Shown: in pieces, positions 2,730 to 26,276 of the stretch | Layout of the letters: every line of letters starts with the position of its first letter | Position numbering within the stretch: position 1 is the stretch's first letter | Origin: Neptunomonas concharum | GTDB taxonomy: Bacteria > Pseudomonadota > Gammaproteobacteria > Pseudomonadales > Balneatricaceae | Assembly: GCF_008630635.1 (NCBI RefSeq) | Contig: NZ_CP043869.1 | Span: 1-64,000 of the forward strand | Length of the DNA stretch: 64,000 nt | Direction of reading: 5' to 3' | Made by a program: the position numbers and the translations under genes | Notes under the pieces: model-generated | The model's input: only the letters and a program-made list of their open reading frames with translations | Databases searched by the model: none | Told to the model about the DNA's origin: nothing

Positions 2730-6256
<3,527 letters not shown>

Positions 6257-6289
6257 TGTGTCATTTCTTGTATGAAATGACATAAGAAT

Positions 6290-6317
6290 AAAAAAGCAGC
6301 TGAAAGGCTGCTTTTTT
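6290..6317 (+). terminator. Rho-independent terminator after gyrB
   Basis: AAAAAAGCAGC (6290-6300) pairs with GCTGCTTTTTT (6307-6317) around TGAAAG. The T-run on one side and A-run on the other let it work in both directions. A second perfect 7-bp inverted repeat, TCATTTC / GAAATGA, lies just before it at 6261-6280. Confidence 0.9.
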
Positions 6318-6464
6318 GTTTCTTGGCGCTCTAAGAGTAATAACACTCAAACCTCTTTTCATTATCTAGCTGCCCTGTTCCCGTTGTAAAGCCATGGTGC
6401 TTACCCTATATTGCTTTGGAGAGTTTTAAGCTCTCTCATTGTTATCTTAAACAGGGAAGTCGTT

Positions 6465-8267
6465 ATGCTAAGAAAATCTTCGCCCACAAAGTCCATTATG
6501 CTCTTGGCGTCTGTATCAGCTCTTCTTGTAGGATGCGGTGGGGGTTCTTCAAGTAGTCAGGGCTCTGTCGCTCCAGTGCCTTTGATAGGTGTTTTTTTGG
6601 ACAGTCCGGTTGAGGGTTTAAGGTATATAACTAAATCTCATCAGGGCATTACTAATAGTAAGGGTGAGTTTAGTTATCTCGAAGGTGAACAGGTTTCCTT
6701 CTATATTGGCTCGAGCTTCTTGGGTTCAACTGTGGGAGCTACGCAGGTTACACCTTTTGATTTACAGGATGCCGAACCTATTACAGACCCATCTGAGCTA
6801 ATGGACGCTCTTCAGGGTGGCCCTTCACCATTTACCAGAGCAATCAATATATTGAGACTGCTCCAGTCTGTTGATGATGACCAAAAACCTGAAAATGGTA
6901 TTCGAATCTCAGATTACGCTATTAGAGCACTTATTAATCATGTGCCGGACTATTCACTTTCAATAGATAAATTTAGTCAATCCAGCGCAGTTAAGGGCGT
7001 ATTTGATTATTTGAACACTAATCAAAATAACGCCGAGTATATAGATCTTTTTTCTGCGTATAGTACAGTTTCGCACGTGTATCGATCTTTAGGTATCGAT
7101 AAGCTCGTTTTTAAACGCGGGAATGTCGCAAGCCGCCCTTTACTAATTAAAACAGACACTAACGCTGATGGTGTAGCGGATAGCGTTGTATCTTTTCAGT
7201 ATGATCAGTATGGGAACTTGATAAGAGAGGCCTACGATCATAATGATGATGGTATCGATGAAGTAGTCTTTACATGGAAATATTTTCCTTCAGGCAATGT
7301 CAAATATAGGAAGGTCGAAGACCACTCTCTTACTTCTGAAATCCATTTCTCTAACCCTAACTGGAGCTCTTTTTGGAAGATGGCAGATGTGGCTGAGCGG
7401 CAAGATCATCCCGAATCCATGCTAACAATCCAGTCTGACGGTCTTGTGAGAAGAGCTGAATATGATGCAGGAAGGGATGGCGTTCTTGATGCTATATCAA
7501 TTGAAACACTCGATGAGTTCGGCAACGTTATTCGATCAGAATATGATGGGAATGCTAGTGGGCGTGCAGGTTCAGTTTTATTAAGTTCTTACGACGACTT
7601 GGGTAGGCTTGTTTCCTGGTCAGAGTATGATCATAACAATTTGATGTTGTCCTCAGTTCGCATTGTATATGACGACATTAATAGAACAGAAACTGAACAT
7701 AGGTATAGTCTATATACAGCTGGTTACGGAGACATCAGAAAAACTTATTATGATGAGTTAGGAAGAATCACTAGATATGATATTCAACCAATTAAGGCTA
7801 TTAGCGGAAGTCGTGAAGAATATTCATATGATGAGGATGGCAATTTGGTAAGTACTCTTCATTACGGAGGTACGGCTGAATATCACCCTTTGTATATTAC
7901 AGAGTCGTACACATACGAGGCTGGGCTTTTAAGAAATTATAAAAAGGATAATCATTATGCTCTTTCTGTTTCAACGAAAACCTACGATTACTCCGAAGCT
8001 GGTCTAATCACATCGGCTTCTAAAGATGATGATGCTGATGGAATCGCAGAGTATCAAAGTCACTACCTGTATGACGAGTTTGGAAATGTCAGTTTGTACC
8101 AAGGCGATTACCAAGCAGATGGTATAGTTGACTACAAGATGAGTATTTCATGGGAGCCTACGCTTACTCCTTATAATGGCCCTGCTTTCCATTGTAATTG
8201 GGAAGTCGGAAGGGATTTAGTAGAGCTTTATACTATGCCAGCCAGAAGCTGCCGTTATAAACCTTAG
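6465..8267 (+). CDS. YD-repeat-like lipoprotein of unknown function
   Basis: I cannot assign a function. The ATG at 6465 is preceded by AGGGAAG and opens a lipoprotein signal ending in the lipobox LLVGC (Cys near 24), followed by a Gly/Ser linker, so the protein is probably a membrane-anchored lipoprotein. A longer frame from a TTG at 6411 has no such support. Residues about 35-90 (SPVEGLRY..GITNSKGEFSY) resemble the short beta modules found near the N-terminus of many secreted gammaproteobacterial lipoproteins. From about 210 to 580 there are irregular repeats of the kind YDEFGNV / YDQYGNLIREAYD, often followed by DxNxDG, which resemble YD/RHS repeats and calcium-binding loops. It is about 600 residues, transcribed alone, and more AT-rich than its neighbours. 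Confidence 0.75.
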   Translation: MLRKSSPTKSIMLLASVSALLVGCGGGSSSSQGSVAPVPLIGVFLDSPVEGLRYITKSHQGITNSKGEFSYLEGEQVSFYIGSSFLGSTVGATQVTPFDLQDAEPITDPSELMDALQGGPSPFTRAINILRLLQSVDDDQKPENGIRISDYAIRALINHVPDYSLSIDKFSQSSAVKGVFDYLNTNQNNAEYIDLFSAYSTVSHVYRSLGIDKLVFKRGNVASRPLLIKTDTNADGVADSVVSFQYDQYGNLIREAYDHNDDGIDEVVFTWKYFPSGNVKYRKVEDHSLTSEIHFSNPNWSSFWKMADVAERQDHPESMLTIQSDGLVRRAEYDAGRDGVLDAISIETLDEFGNVIRSEYDGNASGRAGSVLLSSYDDLGRLVSWSEYDHNNLMLSSVRIVYDDINRTETEHRYSLYTAGYGDIRKTYYDELGRITRYDIQPIKAISGSREEYSYDEDGNLVSTLHYGGTAEYHPLYITESYTYEAGLLRNYKKDNHYALSVSTKTYDYSEAGLITSASKDDDADGIAEYQSHYLYDEFGNVSLYQGDYQADGIVDYKMSISWEPTLTPYNGPAFHCNWEVGRDLVELYTMPARSCRYKP

Positions 8268-8465
8268 AGCACCACAATTAGCTATTTATCTTTTTACCAA
8301 TACTGGTGAGGCCTATGGTTTAGCTATTACCCTCCCTTATAGTTTGCTGAACAAACAGGCTCCTCGATCAATAGCCTAATAGCCTGCATACATATCCAAC
8401 GTCTCGTGATTGAGGTTGTAGAGCGCCGCATACGCAACACTCTACGGTCACTCGAAGCGTTTTGA

Positions 8466-8813
8466 CTACAGCCCTTGAGCTTGGTACTGCTCAACGGCTT
8501 GCATCGCTTCAATGCCATATACTACCGAAGGTCCACCGCCCATTAAAATTGATACAGATACGGTTTCTGCTATCTCCTCTTTTGTTGCTCCCGCTTGCAT
8601 TGCATCATGTACGTGAAAAGCGATGCAGCCATCACATCTAACGGTAACGGCTATACCGAGGGCGATTAGCTCTTTTGTCTTACAGTCAAGTGCTCTAGGT
8701 GTTCGGCTTGCTTTATGTAACAATCCAAACCCTTCCATCGCTTCTGGAATAGCGAGGCCTAGCTTATCCATCCAAGTACATAGCTCTTTGAATTGCGCAG
8801 GGAAGTCCTTCAT
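8466..8813 (-). CDS. Carboxymuconolactone decarboxylase family protein (AhpD-like)
   Basis: The 115-residue product is a single all-helical CMD domain. It carries CDGCIAFH, the CxxCxxxH arrangement of the AhpD-like branch, in which the cysteines act in peroxide or thiol redox chemistry rather than decarboxylation. The C-terminal MGGGPSVVYGIEAMQAVEQY is typical of small stand-alone members. It is divergent from the iadA gene and seems monocistronic. The precise substrate cannot be read from sequence. Confidence 0.85.
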   Translation of the reverse strand: MKDFPAQFKELCTWMDKLGLAIPEAMEGFGLLHKASRTPRALDCKTKELIALGIAVTVRCDGCIAFHVHDAMQAGATKEEIAETVSVSILMGGGPSVVYGIEAMQAVEQYQAQGL

Positions 8814-8963
8814 ACATTACTCCGTATCAATTTATTTAGTTAGTACTGGATATCACATATTCTTTACCGATTATGTAAAGTTTTATGACATGATTTAATT
8901 GTCCCTGCTCATGTTTATTAAGCATACTGACAATAAGCGGTTCCGTTCAGTACGAGGTTATCT

Positions 8964-10172
8964 ATGTCCCCTACTTTCACGTTACTCAAAAACGCTAATC
9001 TTTTTGCGCCTCAAGCTCTAGGTGTCGTGGATATTCTGCTGGCCGGTGAGCAGGTAGCTGCCATTGAGCCTGCCCTGTCGATTACGGGGTTGCCGGGCCT
9101 GGTTACGCTGGATTTGGCAGGGCAAACGGTGGTGCCTGGGTTGGTGGATGGACATGTGCATTTGATTGGCGGCGGTGGTGAAGGAGGTTTTGCTACCCGT
9201 ACTCCAGAGGTTACCATGAGTAAACTGACAACCGCTGGTGTGACGACGGTAGCGGGATTGTTGGGTACGGATTGTGTAACCCGCCACAATGCCACGTTGT
9301 ATGCCAAAACGAAAGGCTTAAACGCTGAAGGCATTACTGCTGTTATGTTTACCGGTGGTTATACCGTTCCCAGCCGCACGATTACGCAGTCGATCCAAGA
9401 TGATATTGTATTTTTGGACACGGTGGTTGGGCTGAAGTTGGCAATTTCTGATCATCGCTCCTCTTGCCCTTCGCTGGATGAGCTGGCGCGTATGGTATCG
9501 GATGCGCGAGTTGCGGGCATGGTGGGTAAAAAGTGTGGTCGCGTGGTGGTGCATTTAGGGGGTGCTACTGAGGGGCTTGCACCGTTAAAAGCTCTGCTTG
9601 AGATGACGGATATCCCCATTAGTCAGTTTATCCCAACGCATATCAACCGTAAGGCCTTTTTGTTTGAGCAGGCCTTGGAGTGGGCCCAGCAAGGAGGTTT
9701 TATTGACATTACCTCGGGGATTAATCCGGACATTGGCGCTAAGGGGGCGATTAAACCTAGTTCGGCTTTTGTGCGATGTTTGCGTGCAGGGCTCGATCTT
9801 AAGCGAGTATGTATCAGCTCTGATGGTAACGGTTCACTGCCGCTGTTTGATGATCAGGGTACTATGATCGGTTTAGGCGTATCGGGGTTTAGCTCATTAC
9901 TGGAGACGTTACGTGAACTGGTCCTGCACGAAGGTATTGCCCTGTCCGATGCGCTAATGCCTTTCACTCAAGCACCCGCCTATGCATTGGGTCTGGATCA
10001 TTGCAAAGGTCGGATTGCAGTAGGTATGAGTGCTGACTTGTTGGTGTTGGATGATAATCTTATGTTAAAGCATACCTTTGCCCGTGGTCGGTGTATGGTG
10101 CGCGATGGTGAGGCGATCGTAAGAGGTACGTTTGAGGCTCAGGTGTCCTTCACTACAGCTGATAGTCAATGA
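8964..10172 (+). CDS. iadA: Isoaspartyl (beta-aspartyl) dipeptidase
   Basis: IadA hydrolyses beta-aspartyl dipeptides left after degradation of isoaspartate-damaged proteins. The 402-residue product is an amidohydrolase-fold enzyme with the first metal motif HVHLIGGGGEGG near 65-76, the substrate-loop TPEVTMSKLTTAGVTTVAGLLGTD, later metal-binding HLGG and PTHINR segments, and the catalytic-Asp region SSDGNGSLPLFD. Its length is slightly above the E. coli enzyme (about 390). GAGG precedes the ATG. Its last 20 bp overlap, on opposite strands, the 3' end of the barrel-protein gene. Confidence 0.92.
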   Translation: MSPTFTLLKNANLFAPQALGVVDILLAGEQVAAIEPALSITGLPGLVTLDLAGQTVVPGLVDGHVHLIGGGGEGGFATRTPEVTMSKLTTAGVTTVAGLLGTDCVTRHNATLYAKTKGLNAEGITAVMFTGGYTVPSRTITQSIQDDIVFLDTVVGLKLAISDHRSSCPSLDELARMVSDARVAGMVGKKCGRVVVHLGGATEGLAPLKALLEMTDIPISQFIPTHINRKAFLFEQALEWAQQGGFIDITSGINPDIGAKGAIKPSSAFVRCLRAGLDLKRVCISSDGNGSLPLFDDQGTMIGLGVSGFSSLLETLRELVLHEGIALSDALMPFTQAPAYALGLDHCKGRIAVGMSADLLVLDDNLMLKHTFARGRCMVRDGEAIVRGTFEAQVSFTTADSQ

Positions 10173-11154
10173 TCAAACCAAAAGCACGCTGGCTGCTCTT
10201 GTCCTCAAATAATGTGCTGATCCCTAGGGTAAATGAGAGATTGTTCGTTAGGTGGGTTTGGTAGGCAAGTTCAATTAACCGTTCTCTAATAACGGGTGTA
10301 TTATCATTACTAGGTGCCCGATATCCCAAACCTAATGAAAAATTATGCCGGCCAACGGTTTTAACCAAGCCAAGTAGAGTACTGATTGAGTCAACAGGAT
10401 AGCCTCTGTTGTTCTGAAACACACCTACCTCGGCTTGTAAGCGTAAGTCGTTAAAAGATCCAACATAAGCCCCCATGAGCAGATCGCTGTTAAGTACGGC
10501 GTCAAGGTCGCTTGCCAGATGGGTGTAATTGATGCTCCATTGATGATTTTGGTTAGCAACTCCTGATAAATTTATATTAACTGAAGATGGCGAATCGGTA
10601 TTACCCAAGTCTGACTGCCATCTTGGGCCGTGGCGTTTTCTATTCAAATCAAAATGTAATGTATCCCAAGGGGAATTCTTAAAGAGTGAAGCCTCTAGTT
10701 TGGCTTGTCCAAAGTTATACCCTAGGGAGATAGCTAGTTGGTTGATTTGTGAGTGTTCTTGAAGAAAATCGGCACTGTATATAGATGATGGTAAAGCCGC
10801 AGGGTAGCCGAAAAAGATAGGCTGGATACCTATGTTCCAGTAGATGCTATCTTTTTCGCCATACACTCTTATATCTGAGAAATTGATCTCAGGTTCGGCA
10901 TAGAGCCTTTCTATCCCAGAGGCATTCTGTTTAGAGGGGGCAAGTTGCCAGCTGATCCTTAAGTTGGACTTGTTACTCAAGCCTATCTCATGACTGGCTA
11001 ACAGGGTTGGATTAGCCACGAGAGTATCGGTTTGGGCATCAATTCGTTCATAGCCAAACTCTATGCTGTAGTGGCTTTCAACTGCTATCGCTGGATAGGA
11101 TGGGGATAAAGCTAGCACTATCAGGAGCGGATAGTGCAATCTGTGCTTTAGCAT
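10153..11154 (-). CDS. Predicted outer-membrane beta-barrel protein, third gene of the repeat/caspase-like set
   Basis: No family is recognised with certainty. The 333-residue product starts with a signal peptide (cleavage likely after SYPAIA, residue 24). The rest is made of alternating polar and hydrophobic strands ending in aromatic residues, such as HEIGLSNKSNLRISWQLAP and LAISLGYNFGQAKLEASL, with a strand-like C-terminus GLIIDYQL, as in porin-like barrels. It starts 11 bp after the caspase-like gene stops and is read in the same direction, so the two are probably cotranscribed. It could be a conduit or surface anchor for the neighbouring secreted proteins; that is inference. Its stop overlaps iadA by 20 bp. 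Confidence 0.7.
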   Translation of the reverse strand: MLKHRLHYPLLIVLALSPSYPAIAVESHYSIEFGYERIDAQTDTLVANPTLLASHEIGLSNKSNLRISWQLAPSKQNASGIERLYAEPEINFSDIRVYGEKDSIYWNIGIQPIFFGYPAALPSSIYSADFLQEHSQINQLAISLGYNFGQAKLEASLFKNSPWDTLHFDLNRKRHGPRWQSDLGNTDSPSSVNINLSGVANQNHQWSINYTHLASDLDAVLNSDLLMGAYVGSFNDLRLQAEVGVFQNNRGYPVDSISTLLGLVKTVGRHNFSLGLGYRAPSNDNTPVIRERLIELAYQTHLTNNLSFTLGISTLFEDKSSQRAFGLIIDYQL

Positions 11155-11165
11155 TTACAGCGCCT

Positions 11166-12059
11166 TTATGACTCGTCAGGTATGACGACCCAATCTTCTA
11201 GTAGCGCAGTCGGGTCATAGTAGTAAGGCTGTTGTAAGCAGATAGCATTAAGGTCTGCCTTCCATTTCTTATACGTTTCCCTCACCTCGGGGACGTTGCA
11301 TCTGGCTCGTTGTGTTCTATGGGTTGCTGAAGCGGCGAGATCAATCGAATAAGCTAAATCCCTATATGCGGATAGAGCGAGTGATTTGGTTAGCATCTCT
11401 GTAAAAAGAGGATAATCGAAACTATGGTTAAAATTGGCAAACTGGTCTTTTTGCGCTGAGAACACGACAGCTATGCGTTTGTCATTTGCATAGGGGTTGT
11501 ATCTAAAGTCATCGTAAGAGGCACCCGTTTCGCAAGAATCAAAAAAGACAGCGATTTCATTAGCTGGCATATTTTCAAGAATTAAATCTCTAAATGCTTT
11601 TACGAGCATATATTGTTTATTATCAACTGCTGTTTTAAGGTCGGGCTCTTTTTCTGTCCAGAAAGCGATACCTTCGTCAGCGATATCGTAACCGTTATAC
11701 TTTCCTTGTAGATGTCCTCCGTGAGCGTTTACATAAACCAAAAGTCTGTCATTAGGCGTAAGCTGTGTTTTTACGTTGTTTATCCCATCGACAACCTTCT
11801 GATAGGTGGCGTCTTCGTTAAGGAATACATGCTGTTGCTCTAACGGTATCATCAGAGATTCTTTGAGGCTGTCCTGTACCAGCTTAGTGGTCTTAGCACA
11901 TGATTCCGCCATTAAAGAAGTTGTTTCTTTGTCGCCGCCATCTTTCCAGGGCGGGCAAACGGCAATGATTACTGCGTGACTCTTGGCGTATGCTTGCCCT
12001 GCTATTATAAGCAGGGCCAATGTGGTTATTTTGAGGGTGTTTTTTAAAGAAAAGAACAT
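11166..12059 (-). CDS. Secreted caspase-fold cysteine peptidase (C14 family)
   Basis: The 297-residue product has a signal peptide (AYA cleavage near 25) and then one caspase p20-like domain. The conserved dyad is visible: His113 in VYVNAHGGH and Cys176 in FFDSCETGA, each at the end of a hydrophobic strand, as in bacterial metacaspase-like C14 peptidases. No second effector or repeat domain is present. Such domains in defence systems are cytoplasmic; this one is exported. It lies 56 bp after a secreted repeat-protein gene and 11 bp before a barrel-protein gene on the same strand, suggesting processing or quality control of a surface protein. Peptidase activity is inferred from the intact dyad. 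Confidence 0.82.
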   Translation of the reverse strand: MFFSLKNTLKITTLALLIIAGQAYAKSHAVIIAVCPPWKDGGDKETTSLMAESCAKTTKLVQDSLKESLMIPLEQQHVFLNEDATYQKVVDGINNVKTQLTPNDRLLVYVNAHGGHLQGKYNGYDIADEGIAFWTEKEPDLKTAVDNKQYMLVKAFRDLILENMPANEIAVFFDSCETGASYDDFRYNPYANDKRIAVVFSAQKDQFANFNHSFDYPLFTEMLTKSLALSAYRDLAYSIDLAASATHRTQRARCNVPEVRETYKKWKADLNAICLQQPYYYDPTALLEDWVVIPDES

Positions 12060-12115
12060 CGTAGCCTCCGTGACAAAATGCCGGTAACGAATGTCAGCTT
12101 ACCGGCAATCCTGAT

Positions 12116-12688
12116 TTATTTCTTAGCCGCTTCTTGTTTTGGAGGCGTTGGGACTTTTCCTCCAGCTTTCTCGCAAGACTCAACAGATGATGCTATTAAG
12201 TGCTCTTCGCCAAAGCCGCAATAAACCGCGCTGTGTTGTGGTTGTTGTGGCTGCATCCCGATAAAGCCGCCATTGCCTCCAATGTTATAGAGTGGTGGCA
12301 TAAATGGGGAGAAGCCGATAAAACCGCCATTTCCGCCAATATTAAAGAAAGGTGGTGGCATCATTCCTGGGTGACCCATACCAATAAATCCGCCATTACC
12401 TCCGATATTAAAGAAAGGTGGTGGCATCATTCCTGGATGGCCCATACCAATAAAACCACCGTTACCTCCGATATTAAAGAACGGTGGCGGCATCATTCCC
12501 GGGTGACCCATGCCGATAAATCCGCCGTTTCCACCGATATTGAAGGTTGGAGGATACGGCCCCATGCCGATAAACCCACCGTTTCCACCAATATTAAGGA
12601 AAGGGGATGCAAAATTACTTGCTTGTGCGGTTGGAATGGAAAGAAGAACAGAAAGACCAAGTGCTTTGATAAGAGATTGCTTGTACAT
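12116..12688 (-). CDS. Secreted NIGGNGGFIG-repeat protein
   Basis: This family is not one I recognise. The ATG at 12688 has AAAGGATAGG upstream and opens a clear signal peptide ending AQA near residue 23; a longer frame to 12727 is less likely. The mature part consists of six copies of NIGGNGGFIG separated by Met/Pro/Phe-rich spacers. The three middle units are 22 residues each with the same spacer, MGHPGMMPPPFF. From the signal peptide to SCEK near the C-terminus there is no Lys, Arg or Asp. The C-terminal 40 residues differ: two cysteines (YCGFG, ESCEK) could form a disulfide, then a Lys-rich tail. It leads a likely operon with the caspase-like and barrel genes. A structural, adhesive or amyloid-like role is possible but unproven. 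Confidence 0.8.
   Translation of the reverse strand: MYKQSLIKALGLSVLLSIPTAQASNFASPFLNIGGNGGFIGMGPYPPTFNIGGNGGFIGMGHPGMMPPPFFNIGGNGGFIGMGHPGMMPPPFFNIGGNGGFIGMGHPGMMPPPFFNIGGNGGFIGFSPFMPPLYNIGGNGGFIGMQPQQPQHSAVYCGFGEEHLIASSVESCEKAGGKVPTPPKQEAAKK
12256..12599. repeat. Tandem DNA repeat encoding six NIGGNGGFIG units
   Basis: Six related copies encode the ten-residue core; the three central ones form a 66-bp period nearly identical at DNA level. Such arrays often change copy number by slippage or recombination. No CRISPR is involved, because the repeats are contiguous and stay in one reading frame. Confidence 0.85.
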
Positions 12689-12875
12689 TTTGCCTATCCT
12701 TTGCGTTAGTGTTTTTATTTGAATCAAAGGCGCTTAATAATTGTACAATTGTTAAGCGTAGATTCAGTGTAGACGCAAAACTGAGTTATTCCTCTTTTTT
12801 GTTATTTTATTTTATGCTACTAAAGTCTTGCTTTACGCTTTGTTTGTTGGCTAGAGATATGCATTTAATAATGAT

Positions 12876-12891
12876 TGTTTCACGTGAAACA
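12876..12891. promoter_or_regulatory. parS centromere-like site 1
   Basis: The perfect 16-bp palindrome TGTTTCACGTGAAACA is the canonical ParB-binding parS sequence. It lies in the intergenic region upstream of the repeat-protein gene, about 12.9 kb from dnaA, fitting the usual clustering of parS near the origin. Confidence 0.93.
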
Positions 12892-12983
12892 TTACCCGCC
12901 TACGTTGATGGCGCCATATCTAGAAGCCAGTTTGCCGACTCTGTATTTTAATCGCTCTTCTCAATGAAGATGCAGCTCTGCTA

Positions 12984-14177
12984 TTACCGCGTAATAGACC
13001 ATAAGCGCTTTTCCCTGTTTGTAAGTACGTTGACATTGATGGTTTTAGACCGACCTGTGCTGGGCAAGGTATTGCATAAGCGAGGCGCGATGATCGGCGT
13101 ATTGTCGCGCTTTATGACTTTACTTACAAAGGGGGATGTCATTCCGCGTAATACTGCGCTGTAGTTAGGTAAAAAGCGTATCTCCGTACCAATGGGTAAG
13201 GATTTTCTGCCACAGTCAATGATGAGGTGATCACTGCTAGCTCCGATGATTTTAATACCTGTTGGTGAGGTCAGTCCTGTGGGGTCAACATCTTGCTGAC
13301 CAATAGCTAGGATTGCTTGTGCTATGCTGCCTTTGTCAATGTCCGATGATTTGGCCATGCCGAAGGCAGTCTGGGCTATCTCCCCCCAAGGGAGGGATGG
13401 CTTAATCTTTGATTCAATGACTTCTGCAATGAGTGTAATAGCATCAGTATGTAGGCTCTCTATTGGTTGTCGATACAATGCCTCCCGACCAAAGAGTATC
13501 GATTCGCCTAAGCGTAAATTATTGATGCGACCAAGGTCGGCGCCACTCAAGGCCCAGTTTATATTAGCTGAGTTACCGCCAGAAATTATTTCGAGTGATA
13601 TGCCAAAGGTATGCTCGATATCATTGGCTAGCGATGAAAGTTCGGCCATGTTGTCTGCAGAGGGGGATACACCGTTGTGGCAAGCTAGATTTGCACCGAT
13701 ACCCTTCAGCTTGACGCCCGGAAGTGCCAGCACCTGTCTGACGGTATTCTCCAAATCAGCGGGCATGATCCCCTCTCGAAGATCCCCTAATTCAATCATC
13801 AATACGATACCATGACACTTTCGGGCTGTGACGGCTGCATCAGAGAGTTTATGAATGACCTCAAGCTCACTATTTAAACTAATATCAGCATATCGAACGG
13901 TACGACTTGCATCGCTCATCATTGGGGAGCGAATAAGCATCAATGGTACCTGAATGCCCGCATGACTCATCGCTTCGATATTCTCAATGCGAGAGTCCCC
14001 AATCATGGTAGCTCCGGCCTGCAGCATTGTGAGGGCTATCTCAGGTGAGCCCAGGCTCACTTTAGTAATCCCTGTTATGGATATACCCACTTCGGATAGC
14101 CTGCTAACGAGGGACTCAGTGTTTTGTTTTATTTTGGTAAGGTCTATCTCAAGCCTTGGCGTATTCATAGCGGGCAA
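12984..14177 (-). CDS. Alanine/ornithine-racemase-family PLP-dependent enzyme
   Basis: The 397-residue product has the fold-type III PLP barrel of the alanine racemase N-terminal family. The segment GITKVSLGSPEIALTMLQAG holds the probable PLP-lysine, followed by DSRIENIEAM, which is characteristic of the alanine/ornithine racemase branch; ELGDLREGI and SGGNSANI fit the phosphate-binding side. The gene overlaps the upstream DUF1611 gene by 13 bp, so they are translationally coupled. Together with the divergent SLC13 permease and LysR regulator, the set suggests import and stereochemical conversion of an amino acid or its acyl derivative. Substrate is not evident; D-glutamate or a basic D-amino acid are possibilities. 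Confidence 0.85.
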   Translation of the reverse strand: MPAMNTPRLEIDLTKIKQNTESLVSRLSEVGISITGITKVSLGSPEIALTMLQAGATMIGDSRIENIEAMSHAGIQVPLMLIRSPMMSDASRTVRYADISLNSELEVIHKLSDAAVTARKCHGIVLMIELGDLREGIMPADLENTVRQVLALPGVKLKGIGANLACHNGVSPSADNMAELSSLANDIEHTFGISLEIISGGNSANINWALSGADLGRINNLRLGESILFGREALYRQPIESLHTDAITLIAEVIESKIKPSLPWGEIAQTAFGMAKSSDIDKGSIAQAILAIGQQDVDPTGLTSPTGIKIIGASSDHLIIDCGRKSLPIGTEIRFLPNYSAVLRGMTSPFVSKVIKRDNTPIIAPRLCNTLPSTGRSKTINVNVLTNREKRLWSITR

Positions 14178-15400
14178 ATGGTTTGCTTTTCACTGAGTTC
14201 AGGAAACGCTTTAAAAACCATGTCGACTAAGTGTTTGGGTGAGCATGAGAGTGCATCGATAGAGGGGATACCGAGTTTCCTTTCATACGTTGTGGCAGCC
14301 GTGCAAGTTTCTTCATTGGTCATGTTCTCGTGATTGAGCGTTAAGCCAATCACTGTGGTATCGGAAAACGTTTGTATTAAATTGATCTCCGACTCTGGGC
14401 TAGGCATTGGCATCAAATCAAAATCGCAGCGGGCTATTCGTTTAGGCGCGTGTTGCAGTATTACTCCATTAGGGCAGCTCCCGCGGAGAATGAAGGAAGT
14501 AGTCGAATAGGCCGGATGGCTAAGGGCTCCCTGTCCTTCGATTAAAATCACATCAGGTTTTTCTGTCTGAAAAGCCTCAAGGATAATTGCTTCTAGCTCG
14601 CCTGCACAAAACTGTGAAGGAACCGCATCCAGGGCAATACCATATCGTGCGCCTTGAATTAGGCTGGTTTGGCCCGTACCGATTAGCACAACATTTAGGC
14701 CAACGTGTCTGAGTGCTCGTGCCAAAATGGTAGCTGTTGTTCGTTTGCCGATTGCACAGTCAGTACCTAAAATGGCAATTCGTGGGCAAGTCACTTCTTT
14801 TATTCTACCGCTGAATATGTGCAATTCTTTCTTGGCTTTGGGGCGCCGTATATCAAGAATGTTTACATTGTGAGTTATGCAGGCAGCTGCAAATTGAGCA
14901 TCATCATTAAGGAATTCATGTAAGCCATTTACAATGTTCATTCCAAGGCTCATAGCGTTAAGTAACAGGGCTCGCTCGTTTGAGGAAAGCATGCCGCTTG
15001 AAGGTGCTATCCCATAAATAAAGAACGCTGGCACGGCAGCTGTGTGTGAGAGGGCTGTGGCAAGATCTTTATGAATAGGTATCGAGTTGGCTTTACCATC
15101 TAGCACAACGCCAGCATCTTGCCCTGCTTTCTGGCTGTCGATTACCGATAGTATTTCATATTTCTCTGAGTGTCTGACTAAGCCATTGGCTGTTTTACCG
15201 TCTATGCCGCCGAAATGTCCTTCGCAATAAAGGACAGCGCTTGCCAAATGTTTGGTTGGATGGTGTTGTTTTAATGGGTATAAAGTTAGCTGTGTAGACG
15301 TGTGTGTTGCCAGATCTGATTGAGCGCTTTGCTGTGGATTGGGTGGCCCTTGGGGCGAATAAAATCGAGCTTGCGTAGGTAGTGGTGGAATAATAGACAT
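14165..15400 (-). CDS. DUF1611 family protein (DgcN-like N-acyltransferase candidate)
   Basis: The ATG at 15400, with GAGG nine bases upstream, gives 411 residues; a longer frame to 15514 runs into the structured leader. After a variable N-terminal stretch of about 50 residues, the DUF1611 core shows VLYCEGHFGGIDGKTANGL, a Rossmann-like segment, and a P-loop GTDCAIGKRTT followed by VLIEGQGALSHPAYS. As I recall, a DUF1611 protein named DgcN in marine bacteria acetylates D-glutamate, and an enolase-superfamily racemase (DgcA) then inverts the product. Here the partner, overlapping by 13 bp, is instead a PLP racemase-like enzyme, so the same chemistry cannot be assumed. Confidence 0.82.
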   Translation of the reverse strand: MSIIPPLPTQARFYSPQGPPNPQQSAQSDLATHTSTQLTLYPLKQHHPTKHLASAVLYCEGHFGGIDGKTANGLVRHSEKYEILSVIDSQKAGQDAGVVLDGKANSIPIHKDLATALSHTAAVPAFFIYGIAPSSGMLSSNERALLLNAMSLGMNIVNGLHEFLNDDAQFAAACITHNVNILDIRRPKAKKELHIFSGRIKEVTCPRIAILGTDCAIGKRTTATILARALRHVGLNVVLIGTGQTSLIQGARYGIALDAVPSQFCAGELEAIILEAFQTEKPDVILIEGQGALSHPAYSTTSFILRGSCPNGVILQHAPKRIARCDFDLMPMPSPESEINLIQTFSDTTVIGLTLNHENMTNEETCTAATTYERKLGIPSIDALSCSPKHLVDMVFKAFPELSEKQTICPL

Positions 15401-15645
15401 GGTAATACCTCGGACTGATTTATGCTCAGGGAGGCGACACATTGAACCAACACTAATCGTTGGACGGCAATAAGAGGTCCCCACTAAGCGGTGGGGTGCT
15501 CTATACCCTACCACAGTTAGCCTATAGATGTTGGCTATTCCCCCTCAGGTTTTCTGAGGGCCTCCCTTTAGATAAACAATTGGATAGTTTTTTAGGGCAA
15601 TGAAAAAATTATGGCCTCTATCAATCTGAAACGAGGCTATACGGT
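15401..15645. promoter_or_regulatory. Divergent promoter region with several hairpins
   Basis: This 245-bp region separates DUF1611 (minus) from the SLC13 permease (plus) and probably holds the LysR operator. Visible inverted repeats are CCCTCAG-GTTTT-CTGAGGG (15542-15560), CCCCAC / GTGGGG around 15479-15496, CCAAC / GTTGG around 15447-15463 and GGTGGGGT / ACCCTACC around 15490-15512. The last three lie in what would be the 5' leader of the DUF1611 transcript and compete for pairing, as in a regulatory RNA. No known riboswitch class is recognised. Confidence 0.5.
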
Positions 15646-17070
15646 ATGTCAGATACAGGGGTTCTTAATAGAGCCGAAATAGGAGAAGCACCTAAGCAAC
15701 GCCGCGAGTACCCTTGGAAGCTTGTGGGTGTGATCTCTGCAACCCTGCTTGTGGGAGTGCTTAGCTGGCTATTTCTGTCACCTACAATGGCAATTACTGC
15801 TGCCTTAGCGGTCTTTTGTATTGGGTTGTGGTCTACAGCTGCATTGCCTGAGTACTGGCCTGCCCTGGCTTTTTTTCTAATAGCTTCTGTGCTGTCTGTT
15901 GCGCCTGAGCAAGTTGTTTTTTCAGGGTTTGAGTCTTCGGCTTTTTGGTTGCTATTTAGCGGCATCGTCTTAGGGGCCTCGATCTCGTATACTGGCCTCG
16001 GTCGACGCTCGGCGATTTTTCTATCGAAGATGTTGGGTGATCAATATGTGAGTGTGCTGTCTGGGATTGTGTGTTTTGGTGTTGGCTTAGCTTTTATTAT
16101 GCCCTCAGCCATGGGGCGTGTAGCGTTGTTAATCCCTATAACTTTAGCGCTTGCTGATCAGATGGGTTATGAACCAGGGCGTAATGGTCGTGCGGGAATG
16201 CTGACGGCTGCGGCGTTTGGTACTTGTTTGCCGGCATTTTCAATATTGCCTGCTAATGGTCCAAATATGATTCTGGCCGGTATGGCTGAAGGTTTATACG
16301 GTATGCATCTGCCCTATTGGGATTATCTACTATTACACTTTCCTGTTCTGGGGTTACTTAAATCTGTTTTTTTAGTCTTGCTGATCCTGTGGGTTTTTCC
16401 TGATCGGGCGCCTATCGTGCGTTCGGTTCCCCTCAAGTCTGAACCGATGAATGGCAGTGAACGACGATTAACGACGCTGCTGGCGGTCTGCTTACTTTTT
16501 TGGTTTACAGATAGCGTCCACCATATTTCTCCGGGTTGGATAGGCTTGGCTGCTGCGCTCTTCTGCTTGTGGCCAGGTGCTGGGCTGACGTCTAAAAACT
16601 GTTTGAATGAAGATATTAAATATGGCCCCCTCTTCTTTGTTGCCGCTATTATGGGGCTAGGAGCCGTGATTTCGGACACGGGTCTAGGGGGTGTGGTTGT
16701 TGATGGTTTGAGTAATCGTGCGGGCTTTTCTCCTGATACGCCTTACTGGAATATAGCGGCCTTAACACTAATCTCGACATTGGTTGGTGCCGTAACAAAC
16801 TTACCGGGAGTGCCTGCTATCATGACTCCGATAGCAAGCGACCTGGCTGCTTTTACCGGGCTTTCTTTGTCGGCTGTGCTCATGACTCAGGTGTTAGCAT
16901 TTTCGAGCGTTTTATTGCCTTTTCAGGCGCCCCCTTTGGTTGCAGCCATTCAGCTAGGGAACTTGCCTGTAGGCAAAGTTACAAAGTTGTGTCTCATGAT
17001 GTTTGTAGTGTCGATTTTTGTATTAATTCCCTTGGATCTGTTGTGGTGGATGATCCTTGGTATTCTGTAA
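15646..17070 (+). CDS. SLC13-family (DASS) sodium-coupled anion permease
   Basis: The 474-residue product is an inner-membrane transporter with about 12 hydrophobic segments in two inverted halves. The helix-break motifs typical of the divalent-anion:sodium symporter fold are seen at IMPSAMGRVALLIPI in the first half and TNLPGVPAIMTPIA in the second. Substrates of the family are dicarboxylates, sulfate or related anions; here an acidic amino acid or its N-acyl form would fit the neighbouring enzymes, as an inference. GAGG precedes the ATG. A LysR gene follows 28 bp later on the same strand. Confidence 0.87.
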   Translation: MSDTGVLNRAEIGEAPKQRREYPWKLVGVISATLLVGVLSWLFLSPTMAITAALAVFCIGLWSTAALPEYWPALAFFLIASVLSVAPEQVVFSGFESSAFWLLFSGIVLGASISYTGLGRRSAIFLSKMLGDQYVSVLSGIVCFGVGLAFIMPSAMGRVALLIPITLALADQMGYEPGRNGRAGMLTAAAFGTCLPAFSILPANGPNMILAGMAEGLYGMHLPYWDYLLLHFPVLGLLKSVFLVLLILWVFPDRAPIVRSVPLKSEPMNGSERRLTTLLAVCLLFWFTDSVHHISPGWIGLAAALFCLWPGAGLTSKNCLNEDIKYGPLFFVAAIMGLGAVISDTGLGGVVVDGLSNRAGFSPDTPYWNIAALTLISTLVGAVTNLPGVPAIMTPIASDLAAFTGLSLSAVLMTQVLAFSSVLLPFQAPPLVAAIQLGNLPVGKVTKLCLMMFVVSIFVLIPLDLLWWMILGIL

Positions 17071-17098
17071 TGGTAAGGGTAAGTCTTGAGGCAAGTGT

Positions 17099-17980
17099 AT
17101 GGATATTCATCAGCTTAAAACCTTTGTGACGGTAGCCCGCGAAGGGAGTATTACGCGAGCATCGGATCTACTTTTTTTGAGTCAGCCAGCTGTAAGTGCC
17201 CACATAAAGGCAATGGAAGATACATTAGGCATCCTTCTATTTGATCGCACTCCAAAGGGTATGGTGCTTACTCATGGAGGGCATCGGTTGTTGGTTAAAG
17301 CAGAGGATGTGTTGTGCTCCCATCAGCAGTTTCTTTCTGAAGCTACTCAGATCAAAGGGATATTATCTGGGAAACTGCGCTTAGGCGTTGGAGGGCATGC
17401 TAGTTCCGAAGCGCTGGGTAGATTGCTGTGTTCCTTATCTGAGGAATATCCAGAAGTAGAAGTTGTGCTTAAGCATAGCTCTTCTCTTGATATTGTCAGT
17501 GGGATAAAAGCCGGAAACCTTGACGCTGGCTTTTATAATGAAGCAGGCCAACCGAGTGGAGCGTTGTCTTTTATTGAGATCAATCGTTTTGCTTTGTACT
17601 TAGCAGCACCAATAGAAATGATAGATCCTGCTCTCCCCCTGAATTGGGATCGTTTGGCAGATCTTCCGTGGATCTGCCCTGCTTCAAGCACCTGTTGTGG
17701 GCAAGCTGCTGAGGCTTTGTTTCAGGCTCATGGTATAAGGCCTAAACGAATAATCAGTATTGATAGTGAGGCTGTGACTCGTACGCTGATTGCTGGTGGT
17801 GTTGGTGTGGGCCTTTTGCATGAGTCAGTAGCTCGGGAGGCTAAAGCAAAAGGTGATGTTGAGCTAATCTGTGAAACAGATAACCCGGTTAGGGTACTGT
17901 TTGCTTGTTTATCAGGGCGTACTGAGGAGCGTCTATTGTGCGAAGTAAACTCGATTGTTTCACGTGAAACATCGATTTAA
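17099..17980 (+). CDS. LysR-type transcriptional regulator
   Basis: The 293-residue product has the N-terminal winged helix-turn-helix (MDIHQLKTFVTVAREGSITRAS.. to SQPAVSAHIKAMED, residues 1-60) and a periplasmic-binding-protein-like effector domain (about 90-290). GAGGCAAGTGT precedes the ATG. It follows the SLC13 permease closely and probably controls both that gene and the divergent DUF1611-racemase pair through the hairpin-rich region at 15.4-15.6 kb. A parS palindrome is embedded in its last codons. Confidence 0.9.
   Translation: MDIHQLKTFVTVAREGSITRASDLLFLSQPAVSAHIKAMEDTLGILLFDRTPKGMVLTHGGHRLLVKAEDVLCSHQQFLSEATQIKGILSGKLRLGVGGHASSEALGRLLCSLSEEYPEVEVVLKHSSSLDIVSGIKAGNLDAGFYNEAGQPSGALSFIEINRFALYLAAPIEMIDPALPLNWDRLADLPWICPASSTCCGQAAEALFQAHGIRPKRIISIDSEAVTRTLIAGGVGVGLLHESVAREAKAKGDVELICETDNPVRVLFACLSGRTEERLLCEVNSIVSRETSI
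17956..17971. promoter_or_regulatory. parS centromere-like site 2
   Basis: TGTTTCACGTGAAACA, identical to site 1, lies in the final codons of the LysR gene, encoding part of its C-terminus. Location inside a reading frame is common for parS. Confidence 0.93.
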
Positions 17981-17986
17981 CCAAAT

Positions 17987-18014
17987 AAAAAAACCAGCCG
18001 AGGCTGGTTTTTTT
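17987..18014. terminator. Bidirectional terminator between LysR gene and glyS
   Basis: AAACCAGCC (17991-17999) pairs with GGCTGGTTT (18002-18010); the flanks add a run of A on the left and T on the right, so the hairpin serves the convergent LysR and glyS transcripts. Confidence 0.88.
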
Positions 18015-18037
18015 AGGTCTTTAATCAGCTGAGAAGT

Positions 18038-20089
18038 CTAGTTATTCAATAAAGAGATATCAGCAACTTGTAAGAAGAGTGCCCTCAAGTTTGCAAGCAA
18101 GCAAATCCTGTTCGCGCGCACAGCCTCATCATCTGCCATAACCATTACGCCATCAAAGAATTGATCCACTTCCGTTTGGAGTGATGCAAGTTTTTCGAGT
18201 GCGCTCTGATACTCTCCCGCTGCAAACAAGGGTGCCAGTTCAGTAGTGAGATTCTTTACGGAGATCGCCAACTTGATTTCAGCGGCTTCGCTCAACAGCG
18301 ACTCATCGACCTCTGCCTGCTCGTTGCCGCCGTTCTTGGCAAGTATATTGGATACGCGCTTGTTTGCGGCAGTTAGTGAAACCGCTTGGGGCATCTGCAC
18401 AAAGGCATTGACGGCATTCACGCGCTGATCGAAGTCTAATGGCTTGGTTGGGCGAATTGCATGAACCGCTAAATAGCTGTCTATGGCAATGCCTTTGTCT
18501 TCATACCATGCACGGAAGCGCTCTAGCATAAAATCCGTCACTTGATCGGCTACTGTGTCGGCTGCTGGTAGATTGTTGTGCAGGCTAGCGGCTTTGCTAA
18601 TCAGTGCTTTGAGATCAAGATTTAGGCCGCGTTCCACGATAATGCGTAATACGCCGAGGGATGCACGTCGCAGTGCAAATGGGTCTTTAGAGCCGGTTGG
18701 CGGTTGGTTAATACCAAACAGCCCTGTCAGGGTGTCTAGGCGGTCAGCGATGGCAACGGCAATGCCTGCGTTAGTCTGAGGGAGTTCGTCGCCCGCAAAT
18801 TTAGGGAGGTACTGTTCATTGATAGCTTGCGCTACTTCCGTATCTTCGCCGTCATGGATGGCGTAGTGGTAGCCCATTAGCCCTTGCAGATCGGTGAACT
18901 CGTAAACCATGTCACTTAACAGATCTGCTTTTGCTAGGTACCCGGCGCGCATGGCCTTGGCGGTATCTTGGCTAAGTTGCTCAGCAATGTAGCCTGCCAG
19001 AGCAGATATGCGTTCCGTTTTATCGAACAGCGTGCCTAGCTGGTTTTGGAATACGATACTTTTTAGATTATCAACGCGGGATTCAAGCGTCCGCTTCTTG
19101 TCAGTTTCAAAAAAGAAGGCAGCATCTGCTAAGCGAGGGCGAATAACCTTTTCGTTACCTTCGATAACCTGCTGTGGATCTTTGGATTCAATATTGGCCA
19201 GCGTGATAAAATAAGGCATGAGCTTGCCTTCGGAATCGACCGCATGGAAATACTTTTGATTCTCTTTCATTGAAAGAATCAGTGCTTCTGCTGGAACATC
19301 CAGAAAACGCTCCTCAAAACGTCCTGTTAGTGCAACAGGCCATTCATTCAAGGCGGTTACTTCATCCAGCAGATCAGGATCAATTTCTGTAGTCCCGCCG
19401 ATCGTTTCTCCGGCAGCGATAATTTGTTGCTGAATTTTATCGCGTCGTGCTGCAAAGTCGGCAATAACATAGCCGGGGTTTAGCAGCTTAGCTTCATACT
19501 CTGACGCGGCCATGAGTTCAATATCATGGTTATAGTGGAAGCGATGCCCACGTGTTTTCCTACCAGAAGTCAGGCCTAGAATTGTGGCTGGAATGACTTC
19601 ATCACCAAATAAGATCACCAACCACTTAGTCGGCCTTACAAACTCAACTCGGCTCGAACCCCAGCGCATACGCTTAGGGATGGGTAAACTGTTGAGTGAA
19701 TCTTGAATCAGTGCTGGCAATAATTGTGCTGTTGCCTGGCCTTTTTCTGTAGAGCGGTAGAGGTAATAATCGCCCTTCTCGGTTGCCAAAATTTGAAGCT
19801 CATCCGTTGTTACACCACAAGAGCGTGCGAAACCTTCGATAGCAGGTTGTGGTGCTTTGCATGATGGTCCGCGCTTTTCAACGTCGGTATCTGGCTGCTG
19901 TGTTTGAAGGCCTTGGATGCGAATCGCTAAACGTCGAGGCGCAGCGTAGCTGGTCACTTCGCCATGGTTTATTCCGGCCGCTTTAAGGCCGTCTTTAACC
20001 CCTTTTGTAAACGCTTCAGAGAGTGACTTTAGTGCCTTAGGTGGTAGTTCTTCCGTTCCTAGCTCAACCAGGAAATCACGTGTACTCAT
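18038..20089 (-). CDS. glyS: Glycine--tRNA ligase beta subunit
   Basis: GlyS pairs with GlyQ as the alpha2-beta2 glycyl-tRNA synthetase and contributes tRNA recognition and an anticodon-binding-like C-terminal domain. The 683-residue length matches the family (about 690), starting STRDFLVELGTEELPPKAL. The glyQ stop and glyS start overlap by one base (TAATG), indicating coupled translation. The convergent terminator at 18.0 kb lies 24 bp after its stop. Confidence 0.97.
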   Translation of the reverse strand: MSTRDFLVELGTEELPPKALKSLSEAFTKGVKDGLKAAGINHGEVTSYAAPRRLAIRIQGLQTQQPDTDVEKRGPSCKAPQPAIEGFARSCGVTTDELQILATEKGDYYLYRSTEKGQATAQLLPALIQDSLNSLPIPKRMRWGSSRVEFVRPTKWLVILFGDEVIPATILGLTSGRKTRGHRFHYNHDIELMAASEYEAKLLNPGYVIADFAARRDKIQQQIIAAGETIGGTTEIDPDLLDEVTALNEWPVALTGRFEERFLDVPAEALILSMKENQKYFHAVDSEGKLMPYFITLANIESKDPQQVIEGNEKVIRPRLADAAFFFETDKKRTLESRVDNLKSIVFQNQLGTLFDKTERISALAGYIAEQLSQDTAKAMRAGYLAKADLLSDMVYEFTDLQGLMGYHYAIHDGEDTEVAQAINEQYLPKFAGDELPQTNAGIAVAIADRLDTLTGLFGINQPPTGSKDPFALRRASLGVLRIIVERGLNLDLKALISKAASLHNNLPAADTVADQVTDFMLERFRAWYEDKGIAIDSYLAVHAIRPTKPLDFDQRVNAVNAFVQMPQAVSLTAANKRVSNILAKNGGNEQAEVDESLLSEAAEIKLAISVKNLTTELAPLFAAGEYQSALEKLASLQTEVDQFFDGVMVMADDEAVRANRICLLANLRALFLQVADISLLNN

Positions 20090-24983: not shown

Positions 24984-26276
24984 TTAAGCTTTGGTTAGTA
25001 GCGCATAGTAGAAGCCATCGTGCCCGTTTTGTTGTGGGAACATTTGCCTTCCATACTTTCTTTCCATACCCCATGAGGCATCGATGACTTGGTGCTGTGC
25101 GTCATTATGAGCTTTTAAGAAGCGCTCAATCAGTCGCTCATTCTCTTGCGAAAATATTGAACAGGTCGCGTATAAAAGTGTGCCACCCGGCTTTAGCATA
25201 GGCCACAGATTGCTCAAGATGTTCCATTGAATGGTTGCCAGAGCATGGATGTCTTCCCCTTTTCTAAGCAGTTTGATATCCGGGTTTCTGCGAATAACTC
25301 CCGTTGCACTGCAAGGGGCATCGACGAGTATTTTGTCGTAGAGTTCGCCATCCCACCAATTTGACTCGGATGCATCTGCGATGACCAGGTTGGCTGTAAC
25401 CTGAAGACGTTCCAGATTTTCTTGAATTCTTACTGCCCTGCTTGCTTCTATCTCAATAGCATCAAGCTGTATTTCGGAGTTTATCTCAAATAGATGGCAG
25501 AGCTTTCCACCCGGTGCGGCGCACGCGTCCAGCACTCTTTCGCTGGGCTGTGTTTTTAGTAGGTATCCGCTGAGTTGTGCGGCTTCATCCTGCACACTGA
25601 CAAAGCCTTCTTGGAAATGAGGTAATAAGTAAACATCGACAGGATGCTCTAAAACAATGCCGCTATCCGTTATTGTTGAGGGGTGGCCTTCTATGTCTAC
25701 AGCGCGGAGAAAATCTAAATATGTTTCACGTGAAACTTTTGAAAGGTTTACTCGCAATGTCATGGGCGCTTGGCAGTTGTTTTCCTTAAGAATCGTTTCC
25801 CAGTTTTCTGGCCAGTTATGGCGTAGCTTCTGAATAAACCAGTCTGGGTGGTTAAAAACAATCTCTGGTAAGTCTTGCAAGCTATGCAGAACGTCATCTT
25901 TTTCGCGAGCAAAACGTCGTAATATGGCATTAAGCAGACCTGAGGCGCGGCTCTTGTCGATTTGATGGCAAGCTTCTACCGTTTCGCTGATGGCCGCATG
26001 TGCAGGTATGCGCATCTCTAGAAGTTGGTATAAGCCTACCAGCAGAAGGGCGTATACGTCCTTATCGGCTTGACGCATGGGTTTGTCGAGCAGGTGGTGT
26101 GAAATCGCTTCTAGCTTCGGATAGTTTCGGCAAACGCCATAGCAGAGCTGTTGCACGAGCGCGCGATCTTTCTCTTCGCAGCGGTTTAGCGCGCCTTGTA
26201 GAGTGTAATTTAATGATCCTTTGCCTTGCAGTAAAGGGGTGATGGCAAGCGCTGCTAAGCCGCGAACATTTATCAT
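24984..26276 (-). CDS. rsmB: 16S rRNA (cytosine(967)-C(5))-methyltransferase RsmB
   Basis: RsmB methylates C967 of 16S rRNA. The 430-residue protein has the N-terminal NusB-like RNA-binding domain (about 1-140) and the SAM-dependent methyltransferase domain with DACAAPGGKLCH (motif I), VDAPCSATGVIRRNPD (motif IV, first catalytic Cys) and ATCSIFSQEN (motif VI, second Cys). Its ATG overlaps the fmt stop by 4 bp. A parS site lies within its coding sequence at about 25.73 kb. Confidence 0.96.
   Translation of the reverse strand: MINVRGLAALAITPLLQGKGSLNYTLQGALNRCEEKDRALVQQLCYGVCRNYPKLEAISHHLLDKPMRQADKDVYALLLVGLYQLLEMRIPAHAAISETVEACHQIDKSRASGLLNAILRRFAREKDDVLHSLQDLPEIVFNHPDWFIQKLRHNWPENWETILKENNCQAPMTLRVNLSKVSRETYLDFLRAVDIEGHPSTITDSGIVLEHPVDVYLLPHFQEGFVSVQDEAAQLSGYLLKTQPSERVLDACAAPGGKLCHLFEINSEIQLDAIEIEASRAVRIQENLERLQVTANLVIADASESNWWDGELYDKILVDAPCSATGVIRRNPDIKLLRKGEDIHALATIQWNILSNLWPMLKPGGTLLYATCSIFSQENERLIERFLKAHNDAQHQVIDASWGMERKYGRQMFPQQNGHDGFYYALLTKA
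25722..25737. promoter_or_regulatory. parS centromere-like site 3
   Basis: TGTTTCACGTGAAACT matches canonical parS at 15 of 16 positions and lies within rsmB. Confidence 0.88.

Follow-up and report, generated by a model that had tools for sequence, protein, structure and literature searches.

A glycine-rich repeat protein, a predicted exported caspase-fold protease and a likely outer-membrane barrel encoded side by side in Neptunomonas concharum

Caspase-like proteins of bacteria have mostly been discussed in connection with cell death and defence. In the amyloid system of Pseudomonas, FapD is described in the excerpts available of PMC5557850 as a periplasmic cysteine protease whose active-site cysteine is needed for the export of FapC through FapF, a 12-stranded, autotransporter-like barrel, and homologues of fapD and fapF are reported to be colocalised in five additional phyla (PMC6173800, in part). 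Type IX secretion employs PorU as sortase and PorV as outer-membrane shuttle (excerpts of PMC8545088 and PMC5562754). Here we describe three adjoining genes of Neptunomonas concharum that invite comparison with these systems. They lie in a window, by which we mean the whole stretch of DNA analysed, of 64,000 nucleotides (nt; contig NZ_CP043869.1, positions 1 to 64,000):

12116 to 12688, minus strand: gene for the repeat protein, 190 amino acids (aa) from its ATG, with signal peptide MYKQSLIKALGLSVLLSIPTAQA by rule
11166 to 12059, minus strand: gene for a predicted exported caspase-fold (clan CD) protease, 297 aa, with His113 and Cys176
10153 to 11154, minus strand: gene for a likely outer-membrane beta-barrel, 333 aa, with a signal peptide by rule and the C-terminus RAFGLIIDYQL

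The trio is a single-genome arrangement and the link between its members is positional; the more general and more interesting result is that an exported caspase paired with an outer-membrane barrel recurs in relatives. We propose, with a probability of about 0.35, that the three genes may form one envelope module in which the caspase-fold protease and the barrel would handle the repeat protein in the way of FapD and FapF. A recurring pair of this kind would assign exported caspases an envelope function that can be tested, and would add another, independent protease–barrel route for handling secreted proteins; searches of the open PMC literature brought up no report of an exported caspase that has a barrel as its partner.

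The layout given by a sequence-only reading of this DNA, three minus-strand genes with gaps of 56 and 11 nt, was borne out by the open reading frame (ORF) coordinates. A longer form of the repeat gene with a TTG start, from 12727, is also among the listed ORFs, and the 3' end of the barrel gene overlaps a converging amidohydrolase gene (8964 to 10172) by 20 nt. The signal peptides of that reading likewise held, as a home-made rule (charged start, hydrophobic core, AxA-like site) passed all three proteins; it passed 13 of the 51 window ORFs overall and also lets through some inner-membrane proteins (MFS, EamA).

Exported caspases and adjoining barrel genes

Caspase relatives were compared at nine loci in eight genomes of the same order, and the neighbouring genes were read at each. 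At five of the nine, in three families of the order, the exported caspase gene is followed directly downstream and on the same strand by an outer-membrane barrel gene:

L093: PF03797 autotransporter beta-domain downstream of the caspase (2.2e-31)
L094: PF03797 downstream of the caspase (1.8e-36), with a second PF03797 on the other side (1e-31)
L098: PF03797 downstream of the caspase (1.6e-32)
L100: PF03797 downstream of the caspase (1.5e-32); the longest reading overlaps
L092 (G192): PF13505 barrel downstream of the caspase (7.2e-11)

The gaps in the other four paired loci, L100 aside, are 23, 43, 57 and 60 nt. In a crude and small background control, none of ten further window proteins that are exported or membrane-bound belonged to a barrel family. 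The earlier reading had tied all three genes together, and of this link the half that joins caspase and barrel finds a counterpart elsewhere: the two adjoin in about half of these distant relatives, whereas the repeat protein is found beside none of them. Neither that protein nor its GGNGGF motif was present at any of 21 loci (nine caspase loci, five plasmid loci and seven congener stretches). As the PF03797 barrels are mutually related, the five paired loci probably represent about two independent pairings, or three when the window is counted. The PF13505 barrel and the window barrel have no visible relation to them (hhalign gave a probability of 0.1% for the window barrel against the PF03797 barrels), so that more than one origin of the pairing is possible.

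Plasmid searches with the caspases of L098 and L092 returned 456 and 29 records, from which four places, a non-random choice, were opened. The Parasedimentitalea region has an OmpA-family gene adjoining the caspase on the opposite strand, and the Pseudoalteromonas region is unannotated; by eye, the latter has no barrel-like ORF nearby and its caspase has no signal peptide. A fusion of TPS and caspase is encoded in the Azospirillum region (L102:3405-8714, on a plasmid of Azospirillum lipoferum 4B), where a single 1769-aa protein carries an N-terminal TPS secretion domain and a C-terminal PF00656. The Skermanella region has defence-like neighbours. As a separate observation, the exported Sel1-caspase loci (L093, L094, L095, L098, L100 and L101) resemble a little-described envelope cluster; in several of them the close neighbours include a gene for an autotransporter barrel or for a lipoprotein of alpha/beta-hydrolase type (under the Pfam cut-offs), or an FHA-domain or Ser/Thr kinase gene, the last two recognised by Pfam in L098 and L094 and elsewhere by eye.

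The 297-aa window protein is predicted, from a weak structure model together with an alignment, to be a caspase-fold (clan CD) peptidase. The His113/Cys176 dyad, already called intact in the sequence-only reading, is invariant in an alignment of 11 sequences and located after strands 3 and 4 of the caspase fold. The protein matches no Pfam family at E 1, so it stays short of the gathering score of PF00656 (Peptidase_C14), a family matched by all ten caspase relatives tested; by score it appears to be a diverged member of the fold outside PF00656. It has no convincing match outside its own genome and none in the seven congeners. A scan of genome contigs with six words from the caspase matched 17 stretches, none of them relatives; with words of eight residues it finds none but close relatives. 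Against PDB sequences the caspase alone gave one row (E 0.96), and the profile-search rows relevant to the caspase part were metacaspase, MALT1 and GSU0716 only; these searches also return Sel1 proteins because the profile includes Sel1 parts. There was no match in phages and one in plasmids (Sulfurimonas). One match was left out: L009, which contains a stop, covers residues 182 to 256 and adjoins ORFs that are not caspase-like.

The earlier reading had held that export sets this protein apart among bacterial caspases. This premise finds no support: nine of the ten best caspase relatives pass the export rule (here also admitting lipoproteins), and export appears from these sequences to be the norm for the branch. 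Nor does it agree with a 2012 survey, in whose available portions (PMC3501461) 98 of 671 prokaryotic metacaspases are placed in a membrane class, mostly with an N-terminal helix that is possibly a signal peptide, and 30 are extracellular; of 217 metacaspase operons in the survey, 14 are listed with OmpA domains and 16 with functions at the cell surface. That the protein is instead a caspase of defence or cell death, as in cytoplasmic bacterial systems, we find hardly credible. It does weakly match NF047832, the family of EACC1-type defence caspases, and the PADLOC caspase model, and the remote Skermanella caspase adjoins an EAD1 gene and GTPase-associated genes. Both matches are, however, weak or far under the family cut-off (25.3 bits against a curated 140 for NF047832, 16.6 bits for PADLOC), the protein has a signal peptide by rule, and neither of its two neighbours matches a defence family.

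The 333-aa protein, described before as barrel-like, is likely an outer-membrane beta-barrel to judge from its sequence. Its alternating hydrophobicity exceeds that of shuffles with a z of 3.2 (3.5 in a second computation), while 11 other window proteins reach 1.7 at most, and by this crude measure the amphipathic segments start at residue 25, directly behind the signal peptide. Values above 1.7 were obtained for three of six Pfam-proven barrels (those of L092, L093 and L100, and not for that of L098 or either in L094); the measure supports a barrel when positive, yet is insensitive. On the other side, no Pfam or NCBIfam family is matched above its cut-off, so that the barrel is only likely; the sub-threshold matches are to LbtU porin (13.8 bits) and OMP_myx_plus (13.7 bits). 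The AlphaFold model is unusable (pLDDT 33.7). Among 57 relatives the protein was found in its own genome only, and 390 genomes of the order gave two weak matches (L090 and L091) with no barrel-like ORF by eye. Plasmids gave none, and a PDB sequence search gave two rows of E 1 or worse.

The repeat protein and a possible mode of action

Six exact copies of NIGGNGGFIG, the number claimed previously, lie within residues 32 to 144 of the repeat protein:

12257 to 12595, minus strand: array of six 30-nt motifs, with three 66-nt units of identical protein and silent variation only

Three of the six motifs sit in the identical 22-aa units NIGGNGGFIGMGHPGMMPPPFF. Pairwise comparison of the six copies gives 85 base differences, every one of them silent and in a third codon position; nine of the ten third positions of the motif vary and none of the 20 first and second positions does. 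Of 20,000 random placements of equally many changes, none was entirely silent. Read in the three antisense frames, the copies encode differing peptides. Because the differences are confined to silent third positions, the repeat protein is real, and its motif has had time to drift while selection acting on the protein preserved it. Chance repeats, or repeats maintained at the DNA level, are ruled out by the same silent-only variation.

The 113-residue array holds 37 Gly, 18 Pro, 15 Phe and 12 Asn, and is free of Asp, Glu, Lys and Arg. Neither Asp nor Arg occurs anywhere in the mature protein, and Glu and Lys are confined to its last 30 residues (Lys174, 178, 184, 189 and 190), a C-terminal tail that also holds both of its cysteines. 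That an enzyme of caspase or metacaspase type cuts between the repeats was considered and rejected on this composition. The protease-controlled display suggested earlier would therefore need the tail, the barrel or a specificity for Asn or Gly; a cut of the latter kind, as by legumain, may occur in the array.

The protein has no relative in the sets searched. It was matched in one of 57 relatives, its own genome, and in two of 244 genomes of the order, the second (L099, in a GC-rich frame) a chance match by eye; the exact motif was present in one of 398 genomes of the phylum, again its own. A looser motif, searched across 84,980 species with a single genome per species, gave 51 stretches, of which by translation none encodes a comparable repeat protein and none has a caspase or barrel relative by tblastn; in the stretch L065 the pattern occurs three times, in frames of 35 aa. 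No family was obtained for the repeat protein from Pfam, NCBIfam, PADLOC or PHROGs, and a PDB sequence search, phages and plasmids gave no match. Viral contigs searched with the motif, the caspase profile and the barrel yielded no relatives. With no relatives to compare, the tie of the repeat protein to the caspase–barrel pair rests on position.

We propose that the caspase-fold protease would be exported to the periplasm and act there with the outer-membrane barrel encoded by the neighbouring gene, which would pass or hold the secreted, glycine-rich repeat protein. The protease might then release, mature or gate the repeat protein by a cut outside the array, made either in the tail with its charges and two cysteines or in the barrel, in a working mode like that of FapD and FapF in which a caspase-fold enzyme takes the part of the C39 protease. 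By this analogy the repeat protein is likely the client of the pair. We infer co-transcription, the barrel fold, this role as client and each functional step, as well as the step from a recurring pair to a mechanism.

Another possibility is that the caspase-fold enzyme is a ligase (transpeptidase), fixing the repeat protein to the surface through the same tail as does PorU with PorV, or the eukaryotic GPI transamidase. This we consider very improbable: the model of the protease is of low confidence (pLDDT 46.6), and for that reason the order of its matches means little. A broader proposal, which we hold to be decidedly unlikely, is an undescribed caspase-fold and barrel pair for export or surface anchoring, spread over at least three families of the order and convergent with FapD/FapF and PorU/PorV, that would here handle a private repeat protein and possibly join its tail to the surface.

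Control elements, genomic setting and the case for one module

Two elements near the repeat gene may bear on its expression:

12060 to 12115, minus strand: the 56-nt gap between the repeat and caspase genes, with a perfect hairpin of 9 base pairs and GGAGG before the caspase ATG
12731 to 12758: a 28-nt, near-perfect, operator-like palindrome, CGCTTAATAATTGTACAATTGTTAAGCG, which ends 42 nt before the ATG of the repeat gene

The hairpin was equalled in 2 of 2000 shuffles and is a possible attenuator; the 81-nt stretch that holds it folds no better than shuffles (z -0.19). When the 295-nt intergenic stretch was shuffled 2000 times, one shuffle equalled the palindrome, and the genome has the 22-nt core of the palindrome at a single place. 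One of seven congeners (G006) has the core with three mismatches, and the reversed control pattern matches there too. A scan for the sigma-70 consensus found no site upstream of the repeat gene, the promoter-like sites in the region being no more numerous than in shuffles, and Rfam gave no match over 6000 to 18100. One regulated transcript that yields more repeat protein than protease is plausible.

The trio sits in the 11.8-kilobase (kb) interval between gyrB and glyS, near genes that we take to be dnaA, dnaN and recF. Behind gyrB, all seven congeners have other genes and none has the trio; glyS was reached in three of the seven stretches, 4.7 to 9.1 kb behind gyrB, and one stretch (L082) contains relatives of the window symporter (61%) and LysR gene (59%). 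The interval being variable, gain or loss of the trio by transfer is likely.

Several observations weigh against a single module. The trio was seen once, and no search brought up a relative of its repeat protein; the array excludes a caspase- or metacaspase-type cut, being without Asp, Glu, Arg and Lys. The window barrel is unproven as a fold and unrelated in sequence to the barrels of the relatives' loci. Four of the nine loci of the order (L095, L096, L097 and L101) lack an adjoining barrel, as does the Sulfurimonas locus L021; L097 has an OmpA/VWA gene in its place, and none of the four opened plasmid regions has a pair of this kind. The hairpin lies between the repeat and caspase genes, so full co-transcription may not occur, and the gyrB–glyS interval, with a content unlike that of all seven congeners, is a place where unrelated genes may gather.

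One explanation for these data, which is possible and which we take seriously, is that caspase and barrel form a functional pair, perhaps one that serves in envelope stress or in the quality control of barrels, while the repeat protein has no part in it and is a surface protein particular to this lineage, encoded upstream by chance. The recurrence of caspase and barrel alone in relatives would fit this, as would the position of the hairpin, which divides the repeat gene from the caspase gene; the shared strand, the short 56-nt gap and common export speak for a connection nevertheless, and the sole operator-like palindrome stands in front of the repeat gene. That the three exported proteins have no connection, and that their genes came together by chance in a variable region by the replication origin, seems unlikely. 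Such a gathering agrees with an interval that differs in every congener examined, with the lack of a second genome that has the trio and with the four loci without a barrel, but it leaves the adjacency of caspase and barrel at five of nine loci, against none of ten in the small window control, and the 11 nt between the two genes without an account. The module of protease, barrel and repeat protein thus keeps the tentative standing given above.

The surroundings of the trio (8466 to 17980) hold a CMD-family gene, the amidohydrolase gene, an Ala_racemase_N gene, a DUF1611 gene, an anion symporter and a LysR regulator, presumably a set for the use of D-amino acids or dipeptides; none of the seven congeners gave a match to the amidohydrolase. 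At 6471 to 8267 lies a gene for a low-GC (41%) protein with an export signal by rule, lipoprotein-like by eye and with a PF05593 RHS repeat. The sequence TGTTTCACGTGAAACA, which we take to be the ParB site parS, occurs in two exact copies and one with a single mismatch (12876 to 12891, 17956 to 17971 and 25722 to 25737; 0.01 expected), one copy lying between the repeat and racemase genes and another beside glyS; in two congener stretches (L081 and L087), too, glyS is adjoined by an exact copy. In a further congener (G007; L083:3093-3236) the last 48 codons of gyrB are present a second time about 3 kb behind gyrB, with 81% identity against 96% for the first copy, a sign of insertion or duplication where gyrB ends.

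Comparison with described systems

Of the described systems, Fap shares with the trio the gene order, repeat, protease and barrel corresponding to fapC-fapD-(fapE)-fapF, and the order and spacing of the three genes would be in keeping with one operon. The window protease differs in having a caspase-type dyad and fold where FapD is a C39 protease, and matches no Pfam family, C39 included, at E 1; its barrel-like partner seems to be without the long N-terminal coiled coil and linker of FapF, and the repeat sequence is unlike that of FapC. No Pfam match among the neighbours of the trio suggests other fap genes, in a comparison that did not include Fap models. As its protease has a different fold and nothing points to an N-terminal domain like that of FapF, the trio is not a Fap system. 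PorU, an exported clan CD enzyme, and PorV, together a C25 peptidase and a FadL-like barrel, offer a likeness in that an exported enzyme has an outer-membrane partner, whereas the three proteins of the trio have no Pfam match at E 1, no search having been aimed at type IX parts; a distant relation may exist. The Azospirillum fusion, too, ties a caspase domain to outer-membrane export, with everything in one 1769-aa protein.

The nearest arrangements are those of the relatives. In L093, L094, L098 and L100 the caspase is fused to Sel1, FHA or kinase genes lie near some, the barrel is of another family and no glycine-rich repeat gene is present; an exported PF00656 protein is nonetheless followed by an outer-membrane barrel gene, as we propose for the window. 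L092, where DUF4384 is also present, differs in having no repeat protein and in a 251-aa barrel without significant match to that of the window, and it has in common with the window a plain exported caspase (348 aa), the order of caspase and barrel, and a short gap of 23 nt between them.

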